Program-made: the position numbers and the translations under genes
The notes under the pieces: model-generated
Seen by the model: only the letters and a program-made list of their open reading frames with translations
What the model was told of the DNA's origin: nothing
Databases searched by the model: none
Origin: Cyclobacteriaceae bacterium
GTDB taxonomy: Bacteria > Bacteroidota > Bacteroidia > Cytophagales > Cyclobacteriaceae
NCBI GenBank assembly: GCA_020832375.1
Contig: JAFIEW010000007.1
Coordinates: forward strand, 1 to 64,000
Direction of reading: 5' to 3'
Length of the DNA stretch: 64,000 nt
Part shown: piece after piece, positions 41,472-52,788 of the stretch
Numbering within the stretch: position 1 is the first letter of the stretch
Layout of the letters: the number at the start of each line of letters is the position of its first letter

Positions 41472-42005
41472 ATGAAGACAGTATTTTTAATTTTATATTT
41501 GACTTTTGGTAGTATTTTTGCTGCCTATGCGCAAAAGTTCGGATATATTGACTCCGAATTCATACTTCGCAAAATGCCTGAGTATAAAGAAGCTCAAAAA
41601 GAGATTTCTAAGCTTAGTGCCTCTTGGCGGGATGAGATTAAAAATATGCGTAAAGATATCGAAGCTGCATATAGCGAGTATAAAGCTGAAGAGCCCCTTC
41701 TTACTGAAGACATGAAGAGAGAGCGAATTGCTGCTATTCGAGCCAAAGAGAAAGAAGTAGAAGATTATAATCAGAAAGTGTTCGGTTATGATGGTTTGTT
41801 TTTTTTGAAGAAGCAAGAATTGCTGAAGCCTGTTCAGGATGAAGTTTTTGATGCGGTAGAGAAGATGTCAAAAGAACAGCGATTAGCCATCGTTTTCGAC
41901 AAATCAGGTGATATGGTCATGATATACACTGATCCTGTGCACGATTATACCGAGTTTGTACTCGAAATATTAGAATTGGTAGAAAAACAAGACGAATTAA
42001 AATAG
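41472..42005 (+). CDS. OmpH/Skp family periplasmic chaperone, copy 1
   Basis: 177 aa from ATG 41472; an upstream TTG at 41448 overlaps bamA and would put eight residues before the signal peptide. Signal peptide about 1-20 (ending AYAQ), a short FGYIDSEFILRKMPEY strand-helix and then a long coiled coil, the jellyfish-type Skp fold. It escorts unfolded outer-membrane proteins to BamA. Next to a paralogue. Confidence 0.92.
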   Translation: MKTVFLILYLTFGSIFAAYAQKFGYIDSEFILRKMPEYKEAQKEISKLSASWRDEIKNMRKDIEAAYSEYKAEEPLLTEDMKRERIAAIRAKEKEVEDYNQKVFGYDGLFFLKKQELLKPVQDEVFDAVEKMSKEQRLAIVFDKSGDMVMIYTDPVHDYTEFVLEILELVEKQDELK

Positions 42006-42038
42006 AGAATTTATTAACTAATTAAACCCTATATTCAA

Positions 42039-42566
42039 ATGAAGATCAAATCCACTTTTGCACTTTTAATCTGCCTATTGGTGGTTGGTTTCAATCTCAA
42101 TGCGCAACAAATTAAAATTGGGTATACTAATGTAGATTATATTTTATCACTAATGCCTGAATCTGAAGAAATTGATGCAGAGCTTAAAGCGCATGAAAGA
42201 CAGTTGAGACGTCAATTTGAAGCTAAATTGAAGGAAGCTGAAGAGAAATATGAAAAATTTCAGCGTGAGGCAGCTACTATGACTGATATGATGAGAGCAG
42301 AAAAGCAAGAAGAGCTTCAAGCGATGCAGCAGCAACTACAGCGTTTCCAAGGTGATGCTGAGCAGTCATTGCAAAAAAAGCAAGTTGAGTTACTACAGCC
42401 CGTTTACGACAAAATCCAAAGCGCTATCGAAGTGGTAGCAAAAAGAGAGAACTATACCCAAGTTTTTAGTTCTGATATTCAGGGCGTGCCAGTACTTCTC
42501 TATGCTGCTGATGAAGAAAACATTTCTGACATCGTTTTGAAAGAATTAGGTGTAGACGCCAGATAG
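42039..42566 (+). CDS. OmpH/Skp family periplasmic chaperone, copy 2
   Basis: 175 aa. Signal peptide about 1-22 (ending LNAQ), then IGYTNVDYILSLMPESEEI and a Gln/Glu-rich coiled coil (about 50-135). Paralogue of the gene at 41472 with 33 bp between; the tandem pair is usual for Bacteroidota. Ends at the terminator at 42622-42656. Confidence 0.93.
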   Translation: MKIKSTFALLICLLVVGFNLNAQQIKIGYTNVDYILSLMPESEEIDAELKAHERQLRRQFEAKLKEAEEKYEKFQREAATMTDMMRAEKQEELQAMQQQLQRFQGDAEQSLQKKQVELLQPVYDKIQSAIEVVAKRENYTQVFSSDIQGVPVLLYAADEENISDIVLKELGVDAR

Positions 42567-42621
42567 TCTTTCAACCTTTAGTGCACTTGTGGTGTACCAT
42601 AGTACTTGCTAAAATAGCATG

Positions 42622-42656
42622 AAAAAAAGCATTCTTCACAAGAGGAATGCTTTTTT
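42622..42656 (+). terminator. Terminator after the ompH pair
   Basis: AAAAAAAGCATTC pairs with GAATGCTTTTTT around a 9-10-nt loop. It ends the uppS-bamA-ompH-ompH run. Confidence 0.85.
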
Positions 42657-42755
42657 GTTATTTCAATTTTAAAGAATTGATAAGTTTTTTAGGCGGTTGC
42701 CCATTCTTTCTGAAAAGGCTTATTTTTACATTAAATTTACCTTAAACCATTTATT

Positions 42756-44387
42756 ATGCATCGATTTAGATCTTTGTTATTCTTATTATTGATTTTGAGT
42801 ACGGCTGTTGTTCAAGCTCAAGAGCGACCTAAGCTAGTTGTAGGTATCGTCGTTGATCAAATGCGTGCCGATTATCTATATAAATTTGATCCTTTTCTTG
42901 GTGAAGACGGATTTAAAAGACTAGTAAGAGAAGGCTTTGAAGTGAAAAACTTTCATTACGACTATATTCCGACTTATACAGGCCCAGGGCATGCGAGTAT
43001 TTTTACAGGTACGGGCCCCTATCGCAATGGAGTAGTCGCAAATAATTGGTACGACAGAGCTTTAGGGCGAGATGTTTATTGCGCTGAAGATACGGATGTA
43101 AGCGGAGTCGGAGGAAGCGGGAGAGCTGGAAAAATGAGCCCAAAAAACAATAAAGCGCCTACCATTGGAGATGAAATGAGGCTTCATTCCAACTTTCGAT
43201 CAAAAAGTATAGGGGTAAGCATAAAGGATAGAGGGGCTATTATGCCAGCCGGTCATAGCGGTAATGCTTATTGGTTTGATAAAGCCAACGGTAACTTTAT
43301 TACTTCTACCTACTATATGGAAACGCTACCAGATTGGGTGGCAAAGTTTAATGAGGACCGTCTTGTGCATCAACTTTTGGCATCAACATGGGAAACGGTT
43401 TTTCCTATAGAGGAGTATGAAGCATTAATAGGTCCTGACAATTCTCCCTACGAACACATATATGGAGGAAGAGAGAAACCTACTTTTCCTTATGACCTAG
43501 AGAAACTCAAGGAGGATAATAATCCTTACGATATGATCACCACTACACCTTTTGGTAATACTTTGGTGACTCAAATGGGAATAGCAGCACTAAAAAATGA
43601 AAAGTTAGGACAGGATGAGCATACTGATTTACTATCTATTAGCTATTCATCACCTGATATTATTGGTCATATATTCGGTACTACCTCAGTCGAGTTACTT
43701 GATAATTATGTAAGGCTAGATCGTGAGATTGCAGACCTTCTAAAGGCGCTAGATGAAGAAGTAGGGGAAGGGAATTATACCGTATTTCTCACCGCTGATC
43801 ATGCAGCGGCTTACGTACCTCAATATTTATTGGATAACAACATCCCTGCAGGATATTTTGACTTTTCCAAACAAGGACCTCAACTTAGTGAAAAACTGAA
43901 TAAAAAATATGGCGAAGGTGATTGGGTAACTAAGCTTAAAAATGAGCAAATCTACCTGAACCGCGAGCTAATTGAAGAAAAAGGTGTTGACCTAGGTCAA
44001 ATGCAACGCGATATTGCCAATTGGGCAATGGAAATGGACGGCATTGCAAGGGCCTATGCCGCAGTCGATATTCATAATCACGCTGAAAATGGTGATAATG
44101 AAATTTCCTTACTTAAGCGTGGTTTATACCCTAAGCGTTCTGGAGATGTACTGGTGATTTATGATCCTAATTGGATGTATCAACTCAGTATAGCCACCAC
44201 ACATGGATCGGGATATAAGTACGATACTCACGTGCCTATGTATTGGATGGGAGCTGGCATTCCTAAGGGAAAGAAAACTTATCAGTATTACAGCATTCCT
44301 GATATTGCACCCACAATTTCATTCTTGCTCAATGCTCCTATTCCGTCTGCTGCTAGCGGTAAGCCTATTTTACAACTATTTGAATAA
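42756..44387 (+). CDS. pafA: PafA-type alkaline phosphatase (alkaline phosphatase superfamily)
   Basis: 543 aa with a signal peptide (about 1-22). Periplasmic phosphomonoesterase with two zinc sites. The nucleophile is Thr75 in PTYTGPGHASIFTG, with Asn96/97 next to the metal site and Lys157 and Arg159 in SIKDRGAIMPAGHS, all in the pattern known for Elizabethkingia PafA. SPDIIGH and TADHAAAY carry zinc ligands. Alone between two terminators; phosphate control is possible but not seen. Confidence 0.93.
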   Translation: MHRFRSLLFLLLILSTAVVQAQERPKLVVGIVVDQMRADYLYKFDPFLGEDGFKRLVREGFEVKNFHYDYIPTYTGPGHASIFTGTGPYRNGVVANNWYDRALGRDVYCAEDTDVSGVGGSGRAGKMSPKNNKAPTIGDEMRLHSNFRSKSIGVSIKDRGAIMPAGHSGNAYWFDKANGNFITSTYYMETLPDWVAKFNEDRLVHQLLASTWETVFPIEEYEALIGPDNSPYEHIYGGREKPTFPYDLEKLKEDNNPYDMITTTPFGNTLVTQMGIAALKNEKLGQDEHTDLLSISYSSPDIIGHIFGTTSVELLDNYVRLDREIADLLKALDEEVGEGNYTVFLTADHAAAYVPQYLLDNNIPAGYFDFSKQGPQLSEKLNKKYGEGDWVTKLKNEQIYLNRELIEEKGVDLGQMQRDIANWAMEMDGIARAYAAVDIHNHAENGDNEISLLKRGLYPKRSGDVLVIYDPNWMYQLSIATTHGSGYKYDTHVPMYWMGAGIPKGKKTYQYYSIPDIAPTISFLLNAPIPSAASGKPILQLFE

Positions 44388-44423
44388 GGTTTAGCCTGGA
44401 ATGAATATAGTAGAAAGATCAAA

Positions 44424-44453
44424 AAAAGACCGCCCTACATAGGACGGTCTTTT
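44424..44453. terminator. Bidirectional terminator between pafA and wrbA
   Basis: AAAAGACCGCCC pairs with GGACGGTCTTTT with one mismatch around a 6-nt loop, with A- and T-runs on both sides. It serves the convergent pafA and wrbA genes. Confidence 0.8.
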
Positions 44454-44511
44454 CATATATTCATTTGAGGCAAACTTTTTCATTCATTCTTTAAAATGAA
44501 TTGAAGACTTT

Positions 44512-45117
44512 TTAATTCTTCGATACTAGCTTTTTGGTAATTTCTACCACTCTCTTTGCTTGAAACTTAGCACCATTGATAGCAGTTTCGTCTGGGTTAA
44601 GCTCACCGTTTTGGCTGGTGAAAGATACTCCATATGGGTTTCCAGTTGCAAATTGAATTGGGTCAGCATATCCAGGTGTTACTAATATTGCTCCCCAATG
44701 AATGAAGGTGTTGTACATAGACTGTAATGTACCCTCATGACCACCATGATGAGTTGCTGCAGTTACGAATCCACTAGCTACCTTATTGACTAATTTACCT
44801 GCACCCCAGAGAGGTCCAGTAGTATCAAAAAACGCTTGAACTTGGGAAGATACGTTTCCATATCTTGTTGGAGAACCAAAAATAAATGCATCGGCCCACT
44901 CAAGGTCATCAAGGGTCACTGTTTCAATATTTTTCGTTGCTTCCAAGTGATTTTTCCACTTTTCTACAGAGCTCACTACCGATTCAGGTGCGGTCTCTGC
45001 AATTCTTCTAAACCTTACTTCTGCTCCTTCTGCGATTGCACCTGATTCAATTGCTTTTGCTAATTCGTAGGTGGTTTCGGTCATGCTATAATAAGCTACT
45101 AATACTTTTACTGACAT
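44512..45117 (-). CDS. wrbA: NAD(P)H:quinone oxidoreductase, WrbA type
   Basis: 201 aa flavodoxin-fold FMN enzyme that reduces quinones by two electrons, limiting redox cycling. VLVAYYSMTETTYELAKAI is the FMN phosphate loop; GSPTRYGNVSSQVQAFFD and TAATHHGGHEGTLQSM complete the WrbA pattern. Monocistronic. The upstream region carries two copies of an 18-bp operator-like sequence, so it is probably induced by quinone or electrophile stress. Confidence 0.94.
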   Translation of the reverse strand: MSVKVLVAYYSMTETTYELAKAIESGAIAEGAEVRFRRIAETAPESVVSSVEKWKNHLEATKNIETVTLDDLEWADAFIFGSPTRYGNVSSQVQAFFDTTGPLWGAGKLVNKVASGFVTAATHHGGHEGTLQSMYNTFIHWGAILVTPGYADPIQFATGNPYGVSFTSQNGELNPDETAINGAKFQAKRVVEITKKLVSKN

Positions 45118-45134
45118 TTCTTTTTTAATTTAGG

Positions 45135-45195
45135 TGTTTAAACATCGATTAATGCTTTAACGAAAGAGCTTTATTAATGTTTGAACATCGATTAA
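45135..45195 (-). promoter_or_regulatory. Paired operator-like repeats upstream of wrbA
   Basis: TGTTTAAACATCGATTAA at 45135-45152 and TGTTTGAACATCGATTAA at 45178-45195 differ at one base and are 43 bp apart, four helical turns. Each contains a TGTTTrAACA dyad and an ATCGAT dyad. The nearer copy is 17 bp before the wrbA ATG. The bound regulator is unknown. Confidence 0.65.
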
Positions 45196-45473
45196 AAAAA
45201 TTGTCTTTTTTCAGCGGTGTCCGAATATTTTCTTGATTTAAAGAAATATTCCTTTCCAATTTTTTGGGTAATCTTTAAACTGTGTGGTTAGATCTAGTAA
45301 AGATGTGCTTTACATAGGGCTTGCCTAAAAAGGCTCAAATACTGCAGATTCGAGTCGGCACAAGCTTCGCTTGTCTTATTTGATGGAAAAAATGATATAT
45401 TTTATGAGGCTTATTTTAAGCGTTTAATCTTTTTTCAAATAAATACCACTTACGATTTAGGAATCACAATAAT

Positions 45474-45612
45474 GCTTTGGGCTAAGCTACAAAAGGTCGA
45501 TCTAAGACATTTTCGTTGCTAGCATTTTCACTATTCTTGATTAAAAACGGTGCACTCAGATAAATAAATTATAGACTTCATGATTTATCAGCGATTTAGC
45601 TATTTTTAAGCA
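45474..45612 (+). repeat. Dispersed intergenic repeat, copy B
   Basis: Aligns with copy A (26828-26964) over about 139 bp in the same orientation; see there for shared blocks. Confidence 0.75.
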
Positions 45613-46080
45613 CGCCTTAAATAAGGGCTTATATAGGCTCAACTTTAAAATACCATATGATGAATCAAGCTGCTTTAAAAATTGATAGCCAGTTTCTTGA
45701 GGTTATCAATAATTTTAGCTGTTTCAGAGCGTCATAAATTGTTAAACCTCTACTCAACTCTCTGCACCGTCGCTTTTTTCTATACAGCATATACCGCATA
45801 GAATACCTCTGTGCCTCTTTAATTTGAACAGCTTGCACTTCTTTCCTTTTATTCATACTCCATGTATTTATAGCACATCAAAAATATTCATAACTAAATT
45901 GAAAGTTCTATTTTTTTTAGCTTCATCATATCAATTTTTATTGAGCAAGCTCTACTTGAGTCATTACAGTTAAAAGGTAATCAAAGTAAATTGGTTAAAC
46001 AGGGTTCACCTTCAACCTTATATCCATATTGGGGCATATGGCATCAGAATGAAAAAGGAAAATTGATCAACAGCTCATAT

Positions 46081-46114
46081 AAAAATAGCCAAGGTTTTAG
46101 CCTTAGCTATTTTT
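46081..46114 (-). terminator. Terminator after the 88-aa gene
   Basis: AAAAATAGCCAAGG pairs with CCTTAGCTATTTTT with one mismatch, ending in a T-run on the minus strand 5 bp past the stop codon at 46120. Confidence 0.75.
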
Positions 46115-46119
46115 AAAAA

Positions 46120-46386
46120 TTATAAATGCTTTTCTACAGCTTTATTCAAATCGTCTAACAGTTTTTTTGAAACTGTGCGAGGCTTTTTCACTTTATAATC
46201 TGAAAGTGTTTCAAAGGCCATTTTTCCAATTTCGTAAAGCCCCTCAGGATTACCATCATTACGGTAACTTCCGAGTACCCATTCAAGCTTAGCCCTTACA
46301 TCCTCAAGCTGGTCATCTTTTAGCTTTTCGAGCTTTGTTAGTGCCTCCTCACAGGCTACTTCTATTTTCAATTTTTCATTTTCCAT
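46120..46386 (-). CDS. Small helical protein of unknown function
   Basis: 88 aa, charged, predicted all helical, no signal peptide. Its own terminator and the clean ATG favour a real gene. The segment ALTKLEKLKDDQLEDVRAKLEWVLGSYRNDGNP and the basic C-terminus (KVKKPRTVSKKLLDDLN) recall no family I can name. No neighbour suggests a role. Confidence 0.65.
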   Translation of the reverse strand: MENEKLKIEVACEEALTKLEKLKDDQLEDVRAKLEWVLGSYRNDGNPEGLYEIGKMAFETLSDYKVKKPRTVSKKLLDDLNKAVEKHL

Positions 46387-46713
46387 GGTGCAAACGATTT
46401 AAAAGATTCTAATGTCAATTTAATGTTTTTCAGTACAATGCCTTGATTAAAAGCTATTTAAAGTAAGGTAATAAGCGATTATGAAACAATTATATTGCTA
46501 CTTTTTTCTCTTTCTGTAAAAAAATGACTCGCTTTTATGGTGCTATTATTCAATCAATTTCAAGAAGCTAGCAGCTTTTAGTTAGGTCAATATGCTTATT
46601 ATAATTCGCATATCAGCATACAGACAGAAGTTCCAATATCAAAGCTTAACCTCTTTCATAGGCATTCGTAAATTATTTATATATTTTTTAATTAGAAATT
46701 AATCATCATCAAC
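46387..46713. other. 327-bp divergent intergenic region
   Basis: AT-rich; contains the promoters of the 88-aa gene and the GH3-family gene, but nothing matches the consensus well. No repeats or hairpins noted. Confidence 0.35.
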
Positions 46714-48234
46714 ATGAGCATAATAGGCGAAATATTAAAACGGGCGGTCGAGATTAGTGACACTATTTTTAAAAATCCTCATCCACCTACGGCACAGCTT
46801 GAAGCCTTAAAGCAGTTACTAGCATCGGCTAAAGACACTGAATTTGGAAAAAAATATGACTTTTCTTCTCTATTAGAGCTAGAAGACCCGCGAGAGGAGT
46901 ATGCTCAAAGAGTACCTTACTTTAACTATGAGGACATGAAGTCTGAGTGGTGGCATCGTACAATCGCAGGAGAAGAGGATGTCACTTGGCCGGGAAAAGT
47001 GGCATATTTTGCGGTTAGCAGTGGTACTACCTCAGCTAGAAAGCGTATTCCTGTTACTGATGAAATGATTAAATCCATTCAACGAGGAGGTAGACAACAA
47101 ATTAAGGCAATGGCGGATTTTGACCTTCCGGCAGACTTTTTTACGAAGGAGGTGCTTATGTTCGGCAGTAGTACCGAGCTTAAGGAAGTAGATGGTCGAA
47201 AAGAAGGTGAAATTAGTGGTATTAGTGCGTCTCAAATACCTTTTTGGTTTGAAGGTTTTTATCGTCCAGGCAAAGAAATTTCTTCTATTACCGATTGGGA
47301 TGAACGTGTAGACGCGCTTTGTAGGGAAGCCAAAAATTGGGATATCGGAGCAATAAGTGGCATTCCATCATGGATAGAGGTCATGCTTAAACGAGTGATT
47401 GAATACTATCAAGTAGATACCATCCATGATATTTGGCCTAATTTGCAAGTATACACTTCTGGAGGTGTTGCTTTTGAACCCTATAAAAAGGGCTTTGATC
47501 GCATCACATCCCAACCCCTAACTGTAATTGATACTTATTTAGCATCTGAGGGATACATTGCTACTCAGCTAAGAAAGGACACTGATGCTATGGCTTTGAT
47601 AACTGACAATGGTATCTACTTCGAGTTTATTCCTTTCATTCCAGAAAATGTAGATGAGGATGGCAATGTAAAACAACATGTAAAACCGATCAAAATAGAA
47701 GATGTAGCATTAGATAAAGACTATGTATTGGTAATTAGTACTGTTTCTGGTGCCTGGAGATATATGATAGGCGATACAATTGCATTCACCGACAAAGAAA
47801 GAGCTGAAATCAAAATTACGGGTAGAACCAAGCATTTCCTTAATGTTGTCGGTTCTCACTTATCAGTCATACAAATGAACCGTGCCGTTTCCACTATAGA
47901 GGACAAGTCTGGATGCGACATAAAAGAGTTTACAGTGGCAGCAGTAGAGGTAGACGGTGAGTATATTCATCGATGGTACCTCGGTATTGACGGTGAATTA
48001 TGTTTATCAACTGCCGATGCTGCGAGTTGGATTGACGAATACTTAAAAGAGCATAATAAAAATTATAATGTAGCTCGCGGTAAAGCATTAAAAGGGGTGG
48101 AGGTTATGCAGCTCCCAGTGGATACTTTTCAAAAGTGGACTGCAGAAACCAAGCAAAAAGGGGGTCAAGTGAAAGTACCTCGAGTCATGAATACAAAAGA
48201 TGTGGAGGAGTGGGAGGCCTTCATCAGCCAATAA
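46714..48234 (+). CDS. GH3 auxin-responsive promoter family acyl-adenylating ligase
   Basis: 506 aa. The GH3 family belongs to the ANL (adenylate-forming) superfamily; plant members join amino acids to jasmonate, auxin or benzoates through an acyl-adenylate. The ATP motif FAVSSGTTSARKRIPVT, the mid motif TYLASEGYIA and the late ITGRTKHFLNVVGSHLSV hinge are all in place, and length is only slightly below the plant range. Bacterial members are common in Bacteroidota, but their substrates are not established. No amino-acid ligase partner, transporter or regulator is adjacent. Confidence 0.9.
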   Translation: MSIIGEILKRAVEISDTIFKNPHPPTAQLEALKQLLASAKDTEFGKKYDFSSLLELEDPREEYAQRVPYFNYEDMKSEWWHRTIAGEEDVTWPGKVAYFAVSSGTTSARKRIPVTDEMIKSIQRGGRQQIKAMADFDLPADFFTKEVLMFGSSTELKEVDGRKEGEISGISASQIPFWFEGFYRPGKEISSITDWDERVDALCREAKNWDIGAISGIPSWIEVMLKRVIEYYQVDTIHDIWPNLQVYTSGGVAFEPYKKGFDRITSQPLTVIDTYLASEGYIATQLRKDTDAMALITDNGIYFEFIPFIPENVDEDGNVKQHVKPIKIEDVALDKDYVLVISTVSGAWRYMIGDTIAFTDKERAEIKITGRTKHFLNVVGSHLSVIQMNRAVSTIEDKSGCDIKEFTVAAVEVDGEYIHRWYLGIDGELCLSTADAASWIDEYLKEHNKNYNVARGKALKGVEVMQLPVDTFQKWTAETKQKGGQVKVPRVMNTKDVEEWEAFISQ

Positions 48235-48248
48235 AATCAATTATTTAT

Positions 48249-48260
48249 GTGGGATGAGGG
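48249..48260 (+). repeat. Core copy of the recurrent GGRATGAGRA motif
   Basis: GTGGGATGAGGG between the convergent GH3-family and zincin genes. Confidence 0.4.
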
Positions 48261-48289
48261 TAATCATTAGCCTTTTACAATCCATAAAC

Positions 48290-48877
48290 TTAGTCGTCGT
48301 GGGATGATCGATTTTCCATCAGCGCCATAATTTCTTCCGGAGGTACGTAGAGTCTATTGATTTTATCTAAATATTTTTGAGGCATACCCGCTTGATTAAG
48401 GATAAAATCTTTTGTTTTCAATATATACTCGCCTAATCCATGATCTACCGCATACGAGTCAGCGACTCTTTCAGCACTCATGATAAAACTGGGGGAAGTC
48501 AAATATAAAATACCAAAAGCAATGAGAGTAAAATTATTTTTGGTCAGATAATCACTGATGTGACCTAGCTCATGACCGATCCACCCTACAAGCACATCTT
48601 CTGGAAGATCCTCAATAGGGGTTTTTTCTCCTTTCAACTCAAAATATTTACTTATTTTGATGATGTATGAGCGGTTTTTTCTTGATCTCCACATGCTTGT
48701 AAACTTAGGCTGCGCTTGCATGACGGATTTTTTGATATCTTCATTGAATTTGAATTCAATTTTTGTCTCTTTTAAATCCGGATAAAATGAAAGAGCTTTC
48801 AAGGTCGCCTGTTCAATGGAATGCGGGATTTCTTTTTTATTTCTATATGAGTCTAAGTTTTTTCCTGAATTTTCCAT
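48290..48877 (-). CDS. Putative zinc metallopeptidase (HExxH zincin, M48-like)
   Basis: 195 aa from ATG 48877; the longer frame begins with a TTG inside the terminator of the upstream gene. GWIGHELGHISDY has the HExxH metal motif, and the third ligand is likely in SAERVADSYAVDHGLG, a Glu-x3-Asp pattern like M48 peptidases. One hydrophobic segment lies between them (about 134-155), so it may be membrane-attached. It lacks the longer N- and C-terminal parts of HtpX. It follows the beta-helix lipoprotein on the same strand but behind that gene's terminator. Confidence 0.75.
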   Translation of the reverse strand: MENSGKNLDSYRNKKEIPHSIEQATLKALSFYPDLKETKIEFKFNEDIKKSVMQAQPKFTSMWRSRKNRSYIIKISKYFELKGEKTPIEDLPEDVLVGWIGHELGHISDYLTKNNFTLIAFGILYLTSPSFIMSAERVADSYAVDHGLGEYILKTKDFILNQAGMPQKYLDKINRLYVPPEEIMALMENRSSHDD

Positions 48878-48932
48878 ATTATTATTATTTACGAAAAATT
48901 GCTTAAACCGATACCTATCCTCTAGTTTAAGC

Positions 48933-48965
48933 AAAAAAAGAGCTCTTTTAAAAGAGCTCTTTTTA
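48933..48965 (-). terminator. Terminator after the beta-helix lipoprotein gene
   Basis: AAAAAAAGAGCTCTTTT pairs with AAAAGAGCTCTTTTT, a nearly perfect palindrome with flanking A/T runs, 26 bp past the stop codon. Confidence 0.85.
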
Positions 48966-48990
48966 AAATGAACGTGTGAAAAATGGATGG

Positions 48991-51021
48991 TTATTGGTAA
49001 TCCTCTATATCACCACTTGCGTTGTTTTCAAAAGTATTTACTGTAGCAAAATCGCTATTGACTGTAGCGCCTTCCCTGATTGCTATCCCCCAGCCTCTAC
49101 TATTCCTAAAGGTACAATCGGTAAATGTGGTGTTGGCCTCAGGCATCAAACCGACTAATGTTTGTCTTGATAAGAAGTTACTAGTCAGTATGATGTTTGT
49201 GTTTCCACCGTACTCAAAGATCGTGTGTTCAAAATTATTTCGAGCGTCTGACGATGCTATCCTAATGCCTCTCCAAAACTGACCTGCATCTAGATTTGCC
49301 GTTGTAAAGGTTACGGGACTTCCCGACGTACCCGTTGAGTTGACAAAACCTTCAATTATGTTGATTAGTACATTTTCTTCTAAAGATATAATTGTGCCTG
49401 CTTCGATATTTACCTCTGCTCTGATCTCAATGTCAGTGGCCAATCGATAAGATGCGCCTTCACTTAATTTCGTCCAATTGCCATTATTGGATATGTTTTC
49501 ATGCTCTACCCTTACTCCATTGAAGCCGTTATCGGTATAAGTTGTAGTCTCATCAATTTTATCATAATTGCTTGCAGATATAGTTACTGCAAAATTGGCG
49601 TTGTTTTCAAATGTATTATTTTCAAAATCTATCAAACTTCCATCTTGACCTACAGTAAGTCCAATGCCGTTTCCATTTCTGATGGTAGAATTCGTGATAC
49701 TTGCTCTTCCATTTCGTGTAATTCCCACATTGGTATCTCTTCTTCTTGCGTTGCTACCAAAAAGGTCCATACCTGAGTTGCCTGCATATTCTATGATCGT
49801 ATGATCAATTTTATTATTGGCATTAGTACTATTTATTCTTAGTCCTTGCCAATATTGACCACCCGCTATATTATTTGAGGTCATTAGTACCTTTTCGTCC
49901 TGCGTACCTTCACTTGAAAGGTATCCGTCATCAACATTTAGAACAAAGTTTTCTTTAAATCGAAGAACTACACCAGCGCTTAGGAATAAATTAGATTGGA
50001 TAGAAAAGTTGTTGGTGCGATCAAATAAGTACCCTGGTTCGTTGGTGCCATTGAGCTTATTTAGCCGTGTATCTCCGCTTGATTCTAGTCGATCACCAAG
50101 GATAATTACTGCATTTGGGACGTTTTCAAAATTGGATTCACTATCTATTTTGGCCACATTGCTCAGACTTCCGATTACACCAAATTGCTCACAATCGATG
50201 AAAGTATTCTGCTCCAATGTTACGAATTCTGCGTTTCCAACAGCCGCAATTCCTCCAAGCATGTTTTCGAAAGTGCTAAACTTTACGCCAAATCGGCCAT
50301 TTTGCTGAGCTTCTATTACATCACCGTTTTTGAAAATACAATGTTCAAAAGTATTTCTTGCGTCAGAGCTAAGAATGATAAAGCTCCCCATTTTACTGCC
50401 ACTAGTTTCATCATTGATGTTAAAAGTGATGGGATTATTTGATTGACCAATTGCTCTAATAAGACCATCAGTCGTAACTGTGATGGTTGCGTCCTCAACA
50501 TGGTGTACAATCACACCAGGGTCGATGGTGAGCTCAGCACTCAGTGAGACGTTTCTAGTGATTAGGTAGTCTGGCTGGCCGGCTGGGGTTTGAGGAGTCC
50601 ATCGGGTATTGCTTGTTATGTTGTTTTCTATCCTCACCAAGCCTCCTCCTACAGCTTGTATGGTTACTTCCCTACTGTCTGATATGCCGTCTACATCTAC
50701 CGTAAGAGAGATAACATAGTTTCCCTCTACGTCAGGGATGAAACTAGCTATAGCGGAGCTACTTGATTGTAGGGTGGTATTTGAATTATCGGGACGACTT
50801 AAAAATTCCCATCTATAGTTGATTGGATTAGGACTGTTTGTTTGGCTATTCGTCCCGTCAAGAATAGCTTCCTGATTTACCTCTACCACGCTTGGGCTGT
50901 TAATCACAGCGCTGACCATAAACTGTGGACTGTCGTCATCCTCAGCACAGGAGGAAAAAACCATCGTCATCGCCAAAGCGATCGATACGATCACCATTAA
51001 GTTGAAATAGTTGTTCTTCAT
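48991..51021 (-). CDS. Surface lipoprotein with PKD-like domain and beta-helix repeats
   Basis: 676 aa. A lipobox (FSSC, Cys25) marks a lipoprotein. A PKD/Ig-like domain (about 35-125) is followed by three homologous blocks of about 150-190 residues, starting near 140, 320 and 520. Each block has a PGV/AGT-type strand segment, an xGxIxAxGT-like turn, an SSDARN(T/N)FEH-type rung, and Asn-rich turns, the pattern of a right-handed parallel beta-helix. Such proteins often bind or cleave polysaccharides, but no catalytic residue set is recognisable. Probably faces the cell surface or periplasm. Confidence 0.8.
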   Translation of the reverse strand: MKNNYFNLMVIVSIALAMTMVFSSCAEDDDSPQFMVSAVINSPSVVEVNQEAILDGTNSQTNSPNPINYRWEFLSRPDNSNTTLQSSSSAIASFIPDVEGNYVISLTVDVDGISDSREVTIQAVGGGLVRIENNITSNTRWTPQTPAGQPDYLITRNVSLSAELTIDPGVIVHHVEDATITVTTDGLIRAIGQSNNPITFNINDETSGSKMGSFIILSSDARNTFEHCIFKNGDVIEAQQNGRFGVKFSTFENMLGGIAAVGNAEFVTLEQNTFIDCEQFGVIGSLSNVAKIDSESNFENVPNAVIILGDRLESSGDTRLNKLNGTNEPGYLFDRTNNFSIQSNLFLSAGVVLRFKENFVLNVDDGYLSSEGTQDEKVLMTSNNIAGGQYWQGLRINSTNANNKIDHTIIEYAGNSGMDLFGSNARRRDTNVGITRNGRASITNSTIRNGNGIGLTVGQDGSLIDFENNTFENNANFAVTISASNYDKIDETTTYTDNGFNGVRVEHENISNNGNWTKLSEGASYRLATDIEIRAEVNIEAGTIISLEENVLINIIEGFVNSTGTSGSPVTFTTANLDAGQFWRGIRIASSDARNNFEHTIFEYGGNTNIILTSNFLSRQTLVGLMPEANTTFTDCTFRNSRGWGIAIREGATVNSDFATVNTFENNASGDIEDYQ

Positions 51022-51252
51022 TTCTGTTAGTAGTTAAATTGAAACACCTTTAGTTACAACTTAATAGGATAGCTAACAGAATAGGTAAATGGTAAATTCT
51101 AATTGAGAGGTTCATTTCAAACAATGAAAACAAAGATTTACAATATTTTCATTGAGTGGAATTATTTTATCCATTGTTCAGGAGGGTAGAAACCGAAATT
51201 TTACCGCGTACTGCTTATTTTATGCATCAAAACAAAAATTCATACAAAGGAT

Positions 51253-51288
51253 AAAAAAAAGCAAGTTCGATAAAACTTGCTTTTTTTT
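51253..51288 (-). terminator. Terminator after the small lipoprotein gene
   Basis: AAAAAAAAGCAAGTT pairs with AAACTTGCTTTTTTTT around a short loop, 17 bp past the stop codon at 51306. Confidence 0.88.
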
Positions 51289-51305
51289 GAGAGGGTGTTA
51301 CGGTT

Positions 51306-51857
51306 CTATCTATTGATTGATTCCGCTAAGTTAAAATCAGCTTGAAAGACTCTATTTCCATCAATCCATAAGGAATAGCTGAATATGTCTTGTTCCGAAA
51401 TGGCAAGTCTCCATTCTCTTGCTCTTCCATCTTCAATCATGCCGGTAGTTTCTTCATCGGCCGGGAATTTTTGAATCAACGCATTCCCCTCACTATCAGA
51501 GAAACCGCCATAATTGCTAATTTCGTCAGGTTCTCCATCTTCACCCAAATGCTGATGTTTAAATTTCAATTTTCCCCCTTCTCTGCTAAGGAACCATGTT
51601 CTAGATTTATCGGTATCTCCGACAATCATTGGCATACTGATCATGTCTTCGCTGCACTCTTGAATAATAAGGGTTAGTTGATCAGGCCCTAATGGTTTTT
51701 TATCGTCTTCCTCGGGAAAGGTGGTTTTACCAATATAAGTACCCCCACAATAAGTGCTTAGTTTTTCAAAAAAAACTTCGTCTTGGCTTGAAGAATCGCA
51801 TGACATAAAAAAAACTGAAAAAAGGAGTGCCGGTAGGGCAAATTTGAGCAATCTCAT
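51306..51857 (-). CDS. Small lipoprotein of unknown function
   Basis: 183 aa from ATG 51857, which starts a proper lipoprotein signal peptide with lipobox FMSC (Cys20); the longer frame opens upstream inside the rhomboid gene and hides the signal. The mature part is acidic with a few Cys (CGG, QECSED) and beta-rich segments. No family recognised. It follows the rhomboid gene by 22 bp, so it may share its transcript. Confidence 0.72.
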   Translation of the reverse strand: MRLLKFALPALLFSVFFMSCDSSSQDEVFFEKLSTYCGGTYIGKTTFPEEDDKKPLGPDQLTLIIQECSEDMISMPMIVGDTDKSRTWFLSREGGKLKFKHQHLGEDGEPDEISNYGGFSDSEGNALIQKFPADEETTGMIEDGRAREWRLAISEQDIFSYSLWIDGNRVFQADFNLAESINR

Positions 51858-51879
51858 AATAAATGATTTAGATGAAAAT

Positions 51880-52788
51880 TTAATCTTTGCTAGCGTTGAA
51901 GAGCTTATCCTTTTCATCTTTAGAAAGGCTTTCGTAACCAGACTCTGAGATTTTATCAAGGATAGCATCTATCTCATTTTGCGCTACATTAGATTTTGGT
52001 TTACTATCATTTGTACGAGAACTTGTAGTTTTTGATTTGGTGCGATAACTAACCTTCACGTCATTTGACTTTACGAAGAAGCTTTTGAAAAAGGTGAGCG
52101 TAGACTGAACAAAAGCACCAATGTCATTTCCCTTTTTCAACTGTGAGATATAAAACCAGCCGATTGCAGCTCCTCCTAAGTGGGCAAGCTCACCTCCTGC
52201 ATTGGCTCCCGTGATACCAGCAAAAGATAAAAACACATAGACTATAGCGATCCATTTGATCTTTACCGGTCCTAAAAGGATAAGGTTAAGGCGATAATCG
52301 GGCATAAATACGGCAGACCCCACCACTACTGCGTATACACCCCCTGAGGCTCCGAGCATCTTGGAGCTTGCTACTCTATCGGCATAGAAGGGAAGTAGGT
52401 TGTAGAAAAGTAAATATGCGAGTCCTCCAATAATACCCCCAAGTATAAATAGGTTCACAAGCTTTTTGCTACCTAAAAATTCGACTATTAACCGTCCAAA
52501 CCAATAAAGGAAAAGCATATTGAAGAGGATATGAAAGAAGCCTTCGTGCGTAAAGAAGTAAGTGATTAAAGTCCATGGCTTAAAGATGAACATTTCTAGG
52601 TTAGACGGAAGCATGATGTTGTGCATGATGCTAGTATATAGTCCTTGTACCCCAGATAGCGTGAAAACCACCTTTAAAATAATTAAAAAGAAAAACACCG
52701 CCACATTGATGCTGATCAATTGCATAAGGCCGTTGTCGGACTTACGGAAAACGTCCTTAAATTCTTCGAAAGCTCCTCTATTATTCAT
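51880..52788 (-). CDS. Rhomboid family intramembrane serine protease with C-terminal tail
   Basis: 302 aa. Six membrane helices (about 22-205) with the catalytic Ser148 in GASGGVYAVVVG and His203 in ELAHLGGAAIGW. A hydrophilic tail (about 225-302) ends in EIDAILDKISESGYESLSKDEKDKLF, a short conserved helix pair seen at the C-terminus of many Bacteroidota rhomboids. Cleaves substrates within the membrane; the target is unknown. A second rhomboid gene lies 245 bp upstream. Confidence 0.93.
   Translation of the reverse strand: MNNRGAFEEFKDVFRKSDNGLMQLISINVAVFFFLIILKVVFTLSGVQGLYTSIMHNIMLPSNLEMFIFKPWTLITYFFTHEGFFHILFNMLFLYWFGRLIVEFLGSKKLVNLFILGGIIGGLAYLLFYNLLPFYADRVASSKMLGASGGVYAVVVGSAVFMPDYRLNLILLGPVKIKWIAIVYVFLSFAGITGANAGGELAHLGGAAIGWFYISQLKKGNDIGAFVQSTLTFFKSFFVKSNDVKVSYRTKSKTTSSRTNDSKPKSNVAQNEIDAILDKISESGYESLSKDEKDKLFNASKD

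Follow-up and report, generated by a model that had tools for sequence, protein, structure and literature searches.

Homologues of the GH3 acyl acid amido synthetases number more than 7500 in bacteria, almost 90% of them in Bacteroidota (PMC12493201, in excerpt), so that carrying a bacterial GH3 gene is in itself ordinary. In the PMC literature, we found one bacterial member with a characterised substrate, namely OlsH, a lyso-ornithine lipid synthetase of the planctomycete Singulisphaera acidiphila that couples fatty acids to ornithine, producing N-acyl ornithine from C14-C18 fatty acids with ATP and Mg2+ (PMC12493201, in excerpt). As far as the excerpts of that report go, its authors consider ornithine an unlikely substrate for the Bacteroidota homologues, because homologues of OlsB and OlsF make ornithine lipids there, and they state that Olivibacter genomes encode GH3 homologues (PMC12493201). 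A Bacteroidota strain assigned to Olivibacter was described as producing N-acyl tyrosines and one N-acyl phenylalanine (PMC8433624, in excerpt).

With bacterial GH3s counted in thousands and one substrate found in print, that of OlsH, a conserved partner gene makes function a two-gene question. Here we describe such a partner, hereafter referred to as PAR, next to a GH3 gene of a Cyclobacteriaceae bacterium. Within its large family the GH3 gene is unremarkable; the GH3-PAR pair is the part worth follow-up.

A full-length GH3 gene and its paralogues

The preliminary description of the window (the 64,000-nucleotide stretch of DNA analysed here) proposed a GH3-family gene with complete family motifs and near-full length, and on these three points it proved accurate. 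The gene is an exact open reading frame (Table 1), and its product exceeds the curated Pfam cut-off of 23.6 bits for each of the three GH3 domains: N-terminal (E = 2.4e-29, 103 bits), GH3_M (E = 2.5e-14, 53.5 bits) and GH3_C (E = 2e-10, 41.8 bits). Its 506 residues are close to the length of its relatives, most genome matches being open frames of roughly 500-550 aa. All three nucleotide motifs are present, as is the C-terminal-domain lysine K487, which we take to correspond to the A10-type lysine that is catalytic in ANL enzymes; K110, E279, D354 and K487 are each invariant across the 47 aligned rows. Compared with JAR1, motif 1 lacks one residue, as it does in several close relatives.

Table 1. 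Features of the GH3-PAR locus, in positions of the window.
Feature	Position	Strand	Basis
Acyl acid amido synthetase of the GH3 family (clade A), 506 aa	46714..48234	+	ATG-to-stop ORF; Pfam domains; fold; tree
Nucleotide motif 1, S102SGTTSARK110, P-loop-like	47017..47043	+	G104, T105, K110 invariant in 47/47 rows; aligns with JAR1 SSGTSQGRPK
Nucleotide motif 2, Y275LASE279	47536..47550	+	Y275, S278, E279 invariant in 47/47 rows; aligns with JAR1 YGSSE
Nucleotide motif 3, G346AWRYMIGD354	47749..47775	+	G346, W348, Y350, G353, D354 invariant in 47/47 rows; aligns with JAR1 GLYRYRLGD
K487 of GGQVK segment, C-terminal-domain lysine	48172..48174	+	Invariant in 47/47 rows; aligns with GQFK/NQYK of plant GH3s
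Intergenic gap, stop codon to stop codon, 55 bases	48235..48289		Scan for intrinsic terminator patterns negative
PAR, predicted zinc peptidase of the gluzincin type, 214 aa if started at TTG	48290..48934	-	ORF, alignment, model
PAR segment E155-D159, with E155 as predicted third zinc ligand	48458..48472	-	E155 and D159 in 78/78 rows
PAR HELGH, predicted zinc-binding/catalytic motif	48560..48574	-	H121, E122, L123, G124, H125 in 78/78 rows

The AlphaFold2 model of the window GH3 has a mean pLDDT of 86.9, with residues 104-107 and 482-485 below 50. In a Foldseek search, plant GH3 structures ranked first (best E = 2.7e-24; top TM-score 0.74, for GH3.15), and plant GH3s were also the best solved-structure relatives by sequence profile; PaaK-type CoA ligases share the fold at a worse E-value (2.6e-17). 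The plant enzymes JAR1/GH3.11, GH3.5, GH3.6, GH3.12 and GH3.15 have the three nucleotide motifs in common with the window GH3, whereas identity over the structure alignments is 15-19%. Taken together, these data place it beyond reasonable doubt that the gene encodes a full-length GH3 enzyme with intact nucleotide motifs and C-terminal lysine.

The acyl-pocket residues of JAR1 (F113, L117, L124, F125 and W336, as listed in PMC12493201, in excerpt) lie opposite V114, M118, G125, G126 and Y281 of the window GH3 in a weak profile alignment. These substitutions would suit a longer acid, at an alignment identity too low for reliance.

OlsH and the window GH3 are alike in being bacterial enzymes of similar length (the OlsH model has 524 positions) with the GH3 family motifs. 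The NCBIfam model of OlsH (NF052613) is indeed the only model of that collection to match the window protein, over residues 19-494 with E = 5e-83. Its score is 279.3 bits against an equivalog cut-off of 620, so that the window GH3 is probably OlsH-like in kind and is ruled out as an OlsH orthologue. A substrate already known in orthologues, which the preliminary description had named as grounds against its reading, is therefore not supplied by OlsH. The same description had called the bacterial substrates unknown; this no longer holds for the family, the coupling of fatty acid and ornithine by OlsH having been published in 2025, and it stands for the window enzyme.

The source genome (4.1 Mb, with a reported completeness of 99.99%) carries four GH3 genes. 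The three others (C6, C87 and C132) belong to the same family, are similar in length and are 31-46% identical to the window GH3; with the OlsH model, the four score 423, 372, 347 and 279 bits, the window copy being the lowest. In a tree of 106 rows, from which four duplicates (L004, L005, L006 and L024) and one sequence that was too short (L028) were omitted, 85 rows form clade A with the window GH3, 11 form clade B with C6 (including L016, whose placement is unsure) and 10 form clade C/D with C87 and C132. The criterion chosen gives 35 positions that set the clade A consensus apart from the paralogue clades; at some of them the window sequence departs from its own clade consensus. Near the hinge, S381 is found in 76 of the 85 clade A rows (with Q or H at 382), whereas the paralogue clades mostly have E there (with H or E at 382).

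The paralogues have neighbours of their own. A LysE-type gene lies directly 3' of GH3 in 9/11 clade B tree rows, the exceptions being L016 and L027, and also 3' of the GH3 gene of L028, which consists of two ORFs (the loci are L003/L024, which is C6 itself, L010-L015, L017, L025 and L028); this neighbour suggests that an amino acid or a conjugate is exported. At L036:8332-9896 (G016), a GH3 that resembles clade B by eye is seemingly split over two open reading frames and is followed by a LysE-type gene; it may be a broken gene or a sequencing error. In five of nine C87-type loci, seen with flanks of about 1.5 kb, lptB, the LPS-export ATPase gene (TIGR04406 in L001), lies directly upstream of GH3 (L001, which is C87, and L018, L019, L020 and L021), an arrangement that may link a widespread GH3 clade to the outer membrane. 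The window GH3 gene has neither a LysE-type nor an lptB neighbour.

A gene for a predicted zinc hydrolase adjoins the GH3 gene

In the preliminary description, the GH3 gene lay alone and its context gave no clue. Related loci overturn this view: PAR, which adjoins the 3' side of the window gene, is next to GH3 in 61/80 named loci of the closest clade relatives, the next commonest neighbour family reaching 12/80, and a solitary GH3 gene is thereby ruled out. The two genes stand tail-to-tail, an arrangement that is not an operon, in 56 of the 61 adjacent pairs; in these 56 the coding regions lie a median of 3 bases apart, overlap (negative gap) in 24 and are separated by no more than 87 bases in 50. 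The other five pairs are co-directional with PAR upstream, adjoining GH3 in Flavivirga and separated from it by a single gene in four Aquimarina. Among the 19 loci that lack an adjacent PAR, 18 genomes were searched; 14 carry PAR elsewhere, and four (three MAGs and Cesiribacter sp. SM1) have GH3 with no PAR found.

Over 62 loci, the protein identities of GH3 and PAR are correlated (r = 0.88, with no control for the species tree), and the median PAR identity across pair loci is 48%. Mapped on the GH3 tree, the PAR-adjacency label changes 8 times, compared with a mean of 32.8 in shuffles; the 65 rows carrying this label were assigned by hand and comprise the 61 named loci, the window, L007, L008 and L026, whose neighbour is 37% identical. 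Both Desertivirga genes have their nearest relatives in Larkinella/Spirosoma/Dyadobacter, a sequence pattern that suggests acquisition by joint transfer. The pair occurs in Cytophagales-, Flavobacteriaceae- and Sphingobacteriaceae-type Bacteroidota, and no report of a GH3-peptidase pair was found in the PMC literature.

The more likely start of PAR, judged from the alignment, is the ATG at 48877, giving 195 aa. HELGH followed downstream by a glutamate and an aspartate is the ligand pattern of gluzincins, and PAR and its relatives share it throughout (Table 1; the 78 rows count the window's copy twice, as the window and as L117). In Pfam, the window PAR matches nothing significantly (best E = 0.027), and in NCBIfam nothing at E = 1; the family thus exposed is a predicted peptidase family. 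The profile of the PAR family matched no PDB sequence at E = 10. Pfam matches of five PAR copies were chance-like, with E = 0.012 or more, and among 60 PAR rows compared with NCBIfam, seven weakly match the BPSL0761 family (best E = 1.8e-4) and two weakly match the epipeptide HExxH protease model (best E = 0.016).

The AlphaFold2 model of the 195-aa PAR has a pLDDT of 93.3. Foldseek matches were weak (best E = 0.44, to ZMPSTE24); in VIA-align, rows 1-9 are all gluzincins at Z 6.6-8.3, near the level at which the tool warns that matches can be common, and include Ste24p (Z 8.3), abylysin (8.2), BepA (8.0), selecase (7.8), ZMPSTE24 and jannalysin. Lower rows, at about Z 5-6.5 (BlaR1, SprT-type, aminopeptidase, ACE, ACE2 and anthrax lethal factor), share the general fold and carry no information on PAR function. 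The M48-like gluzincins and minigluzincins (Ste24p, BepA, abylysin and selecase) resemble PAR in HELGH, in the downstream E and D and in the modelled fold (Z 7.5-8.3), whereas Ste24p is much longer than the 195-aa model and the window PAR has no significant sequence match in Pfam, NCBIfam or PDB. On the strength of motif and model, PAR is a predicted gluzincin zinc hydrolase.

By a crude 11-residue hydropathy cut-off, the N-terminus of PAR is signal-peptide-like in 30/78 rows, the window copy not among them; at least one row (L085) was scored on the wrong stretch, and the signal-like L100 and L102 fall just under the cut-off. PAR thus looks to be exported in some lineages and cytosolic in that of the window, and GH3 and PAR need not share a compartment.

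Several of the pair loci hold further genes. The four Aquimarina loci (L058:3071-10285, L059:3055-10274, L074:3056-10274 and L096:1730-9004) carry on one strand PAR, a gene of 407-413 aa, GH3 and a protein of 1235-1238 aa; in the one of each that was tested, the middle gene is HD-PycTM, Pycsar-effector-like, and the last has a calcineurin-like phosphoesterase domain. A sodium:solute symporter gene lies close to GH3 in L031:3856-8564 (G001) and in Belliella (L040, L042, L043, L044 and L047); the assignment to PF00474 was tested in G001, where sugar kinase- and xylose isomerase-like genes were also recognised by eye.

A defence system was rejected, PADLOC giving 0 families for GH3 or PAR at E = 0.01; only the Aquimarina gene between PAR and GH3 matches its PycTM and effector models. 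A phage gene was likewise rejected, with 0 PHROGs matches for GH3 and two weak ones of unassigned function for PAR (E about 2e-4); the best match of the PAR fold in BFVD has E = 3e-3. Rfam gave 0 matches in 42000-52000, sigma-70-like and terminator patterns were no more frequent than in shuffles, and the Bacteroidota promoter pattern TTTG-N-TAnnTTTG occurs four times in the window (2.7 expected) and not at the GH3 gene. The approximately 1.6 kb before GH3 (45118-46713) are gene-poor, with a single ORF of at least 80 aa (46120-46386, minus strand, 88 aa) that has no Pfam or NCBIfam match; this interval has no Rfam match.

Co-occurrence of the two genes across genomes

In a class sample of 395 genomes, a close GH3 (at least 600 bits) and a close PAR (E at most 1e-45) were found in the same 13 genomes (Fisher 1e-24, uncorrected for kinship), with thresholds set after gaps had been seen in the lists. 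The two matches lie within 0.4 kb of each other in 11 of the 13 genomes, 20 kb apart on one contig in another and on different contigs in the last. Relaxing the cut-offs brings in 17 further genomes whose GH3 (44-50% identical, 519-547 bits) is unaccompanied by a PAR at E of 1e-30 or less, and two whose PAR (E = 1e-38 to 1e-39) is unaccompanied by a GH3 of that kind.

An order sample of 194 genomes, for which the GH3 threshold of at least 540 bits was also chosen after seeing gaps, contains a close GH3 in 18 and a close PAR in 16, with both in 15, GH3 only in three (each 50-51% identical) and PAR only in one. Within the window's family, four genomes of this sample have both genes, 12 have neither and 0 have one only (Fisher 5e-4); one genus of the family includes two genomes with both and one with neither. 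The two samples overlap, G000, G117, G131, G041 and G071 being positive in both, and their genomes are related by descent, hence not independent. Another 31 genomes of the order sample carry a distant PAR relative (about 25-36% identical; E = 6e-21 to 6e-10), and a GH3 match within about 1.5 kb of it was seen in 0 of the 14 loci examined (L133-L146).

The changed orientation of the pair, its presence in trans and its joint presence or absence within a genus argue for a functional tie between GH3 and PAR. The GH3 family of the first gene, its intact motifs, the linkage of the two genes and their co-occurrence are matters of observation.

Possible functions of the GH3-PAR pair

We tentatively favour a conserved two-gene module, to which we assign slightly less than an even chance. 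In an ATP-dependent step, GH3 would adenylate a carboxylic acid, for which a fatty acid or a small hydrophobic acid is the likeliest choice, and would pass the acyl moiety on to an amino acid at its amine, yielding an N-acyl amino acid; PAR would cleave or process this conjugate, or its peptide precursor, and the pair would thereby set the level of the conjugate. ATP-dependent amide formation with an amino acid is the putative activity of the window GH3 by analogy with its family, and the acid and amine substrates, the catalytic activity of PAR and a metabolite shared by the two proteins are what we infer. The acyl tyrosines and phenylalanine of Olivibacter, together with the GH3 homologues in its genomes, make aromatic or other amino acids reasonable first candidates (PMC8433624 and PMC12493201, both in excerpt).

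The strongest of the rival explanations, in our view unlikely and still a serious contender, makes PAR a peptidase of proteins or peptides, whose task would be to provide or tailor the amine acceptor, be it a free amino acid or a short peptide, or to mature GH3, leaving the acyl conjugate untouched. The nearest solved folds are indeed protein peptidases and minigluzincins (Ste24p, abylysin, BepA and selecase). The solved proteins that PAR matches in fold are mostly peptidases, and we know of none among them that acts as an amidase on N-acyl amino acids, which counts against the favoured module. Against the rival, the sequence names no peptide substrate, and wherever PAR is signal-peptide-like it would be separated from a cytosolic GH3.

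It is less probable that the window GH3 activates its acid for some other acceptor, such as CoA, a sugar amine, a polyamine or a protein lysine. The fold shared with PaaK-type CoA ligases would allow for this, as would the clade-specific positions, including the serine that replaces E near the hinge, but plant GH3s are the better structural match and, to our knowledge, every characterised GH3 forms amides with amino acids.

Two further explanations appear improbable to us, and about equally so. The first is that the window GH3 performs the OlsH function, lyso-ornithine-lipid synthesis, under another sequence. In its favour, OlsH is the sole characterised bacterial GH3 found in the literature and the source of the sole matching NCBIfam model; against it stand the lowest score among the four GH3s of the genome, far under the cut-off, the judgement of the OlsH authors on ornithine in Bacteroidota (PMC12493201, in excerpt), and a neighbour that is a predicted gluzincin and not the OlsI alpha/beta-hydrolase. 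In planctomycetes OlsH shares an operon with OlsI (PMC12493201); among the ten window proteins scanned around GH3, no alpha/beta-hydrolase match was found. A single weak match to the OlsB-type acetyltransferase (PF13444) in the source genome, at 24.4 bits compared with a cut-off of 22.4, allows no interpretation.

The second is that GH3 and PAR have been carried along together on an ancient genomic block, transferred from time to time, and are functionally unlinked. Adjacency that is largely inherited, with few label changes on the tree, and the Desertivirga relatives that suggest joint transfer both fit such a history, but no other neighbour family is retained to a comparable extent, and the pair persists despite the divergence of PAR, stays close when reoriented and is co-present when apart.

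That the window GH3, like plant GH3s, conjugates an acid resembling a plant hormone (indole-3-acetic acid, for example) is very improbable: GH3 family membership and one leaf-linked strain name among the 80 named relatives (Dyadobacter sp. Leaf189) point towards it, but the residues opposite the JAR1 acyl pocket are, in that weak alignment, not conserved.

Returning to the favoured module, its comparison with known systems can be taken one step further. Plant GH3s operate alongside amidohydrolases, which release what the synthetase has conjugated, and OlsH has OlsI or OlsG as neighbours where the window GH3 has a predicted gluzincin gene. Clade A GH3 and PAR might form a dedicated make-then-cleave, or make-then-mature, module for an N-acyl amino acid or acyl-peptide in Bacteroidota, a proposal that we consider possible and somewhat less than probable; it would mirror the plant pairing of GH3 and amidohydrolase with an unrelated hydrolase, and would constitute a second bacterial GH3 system beside OlsH-OlsI.
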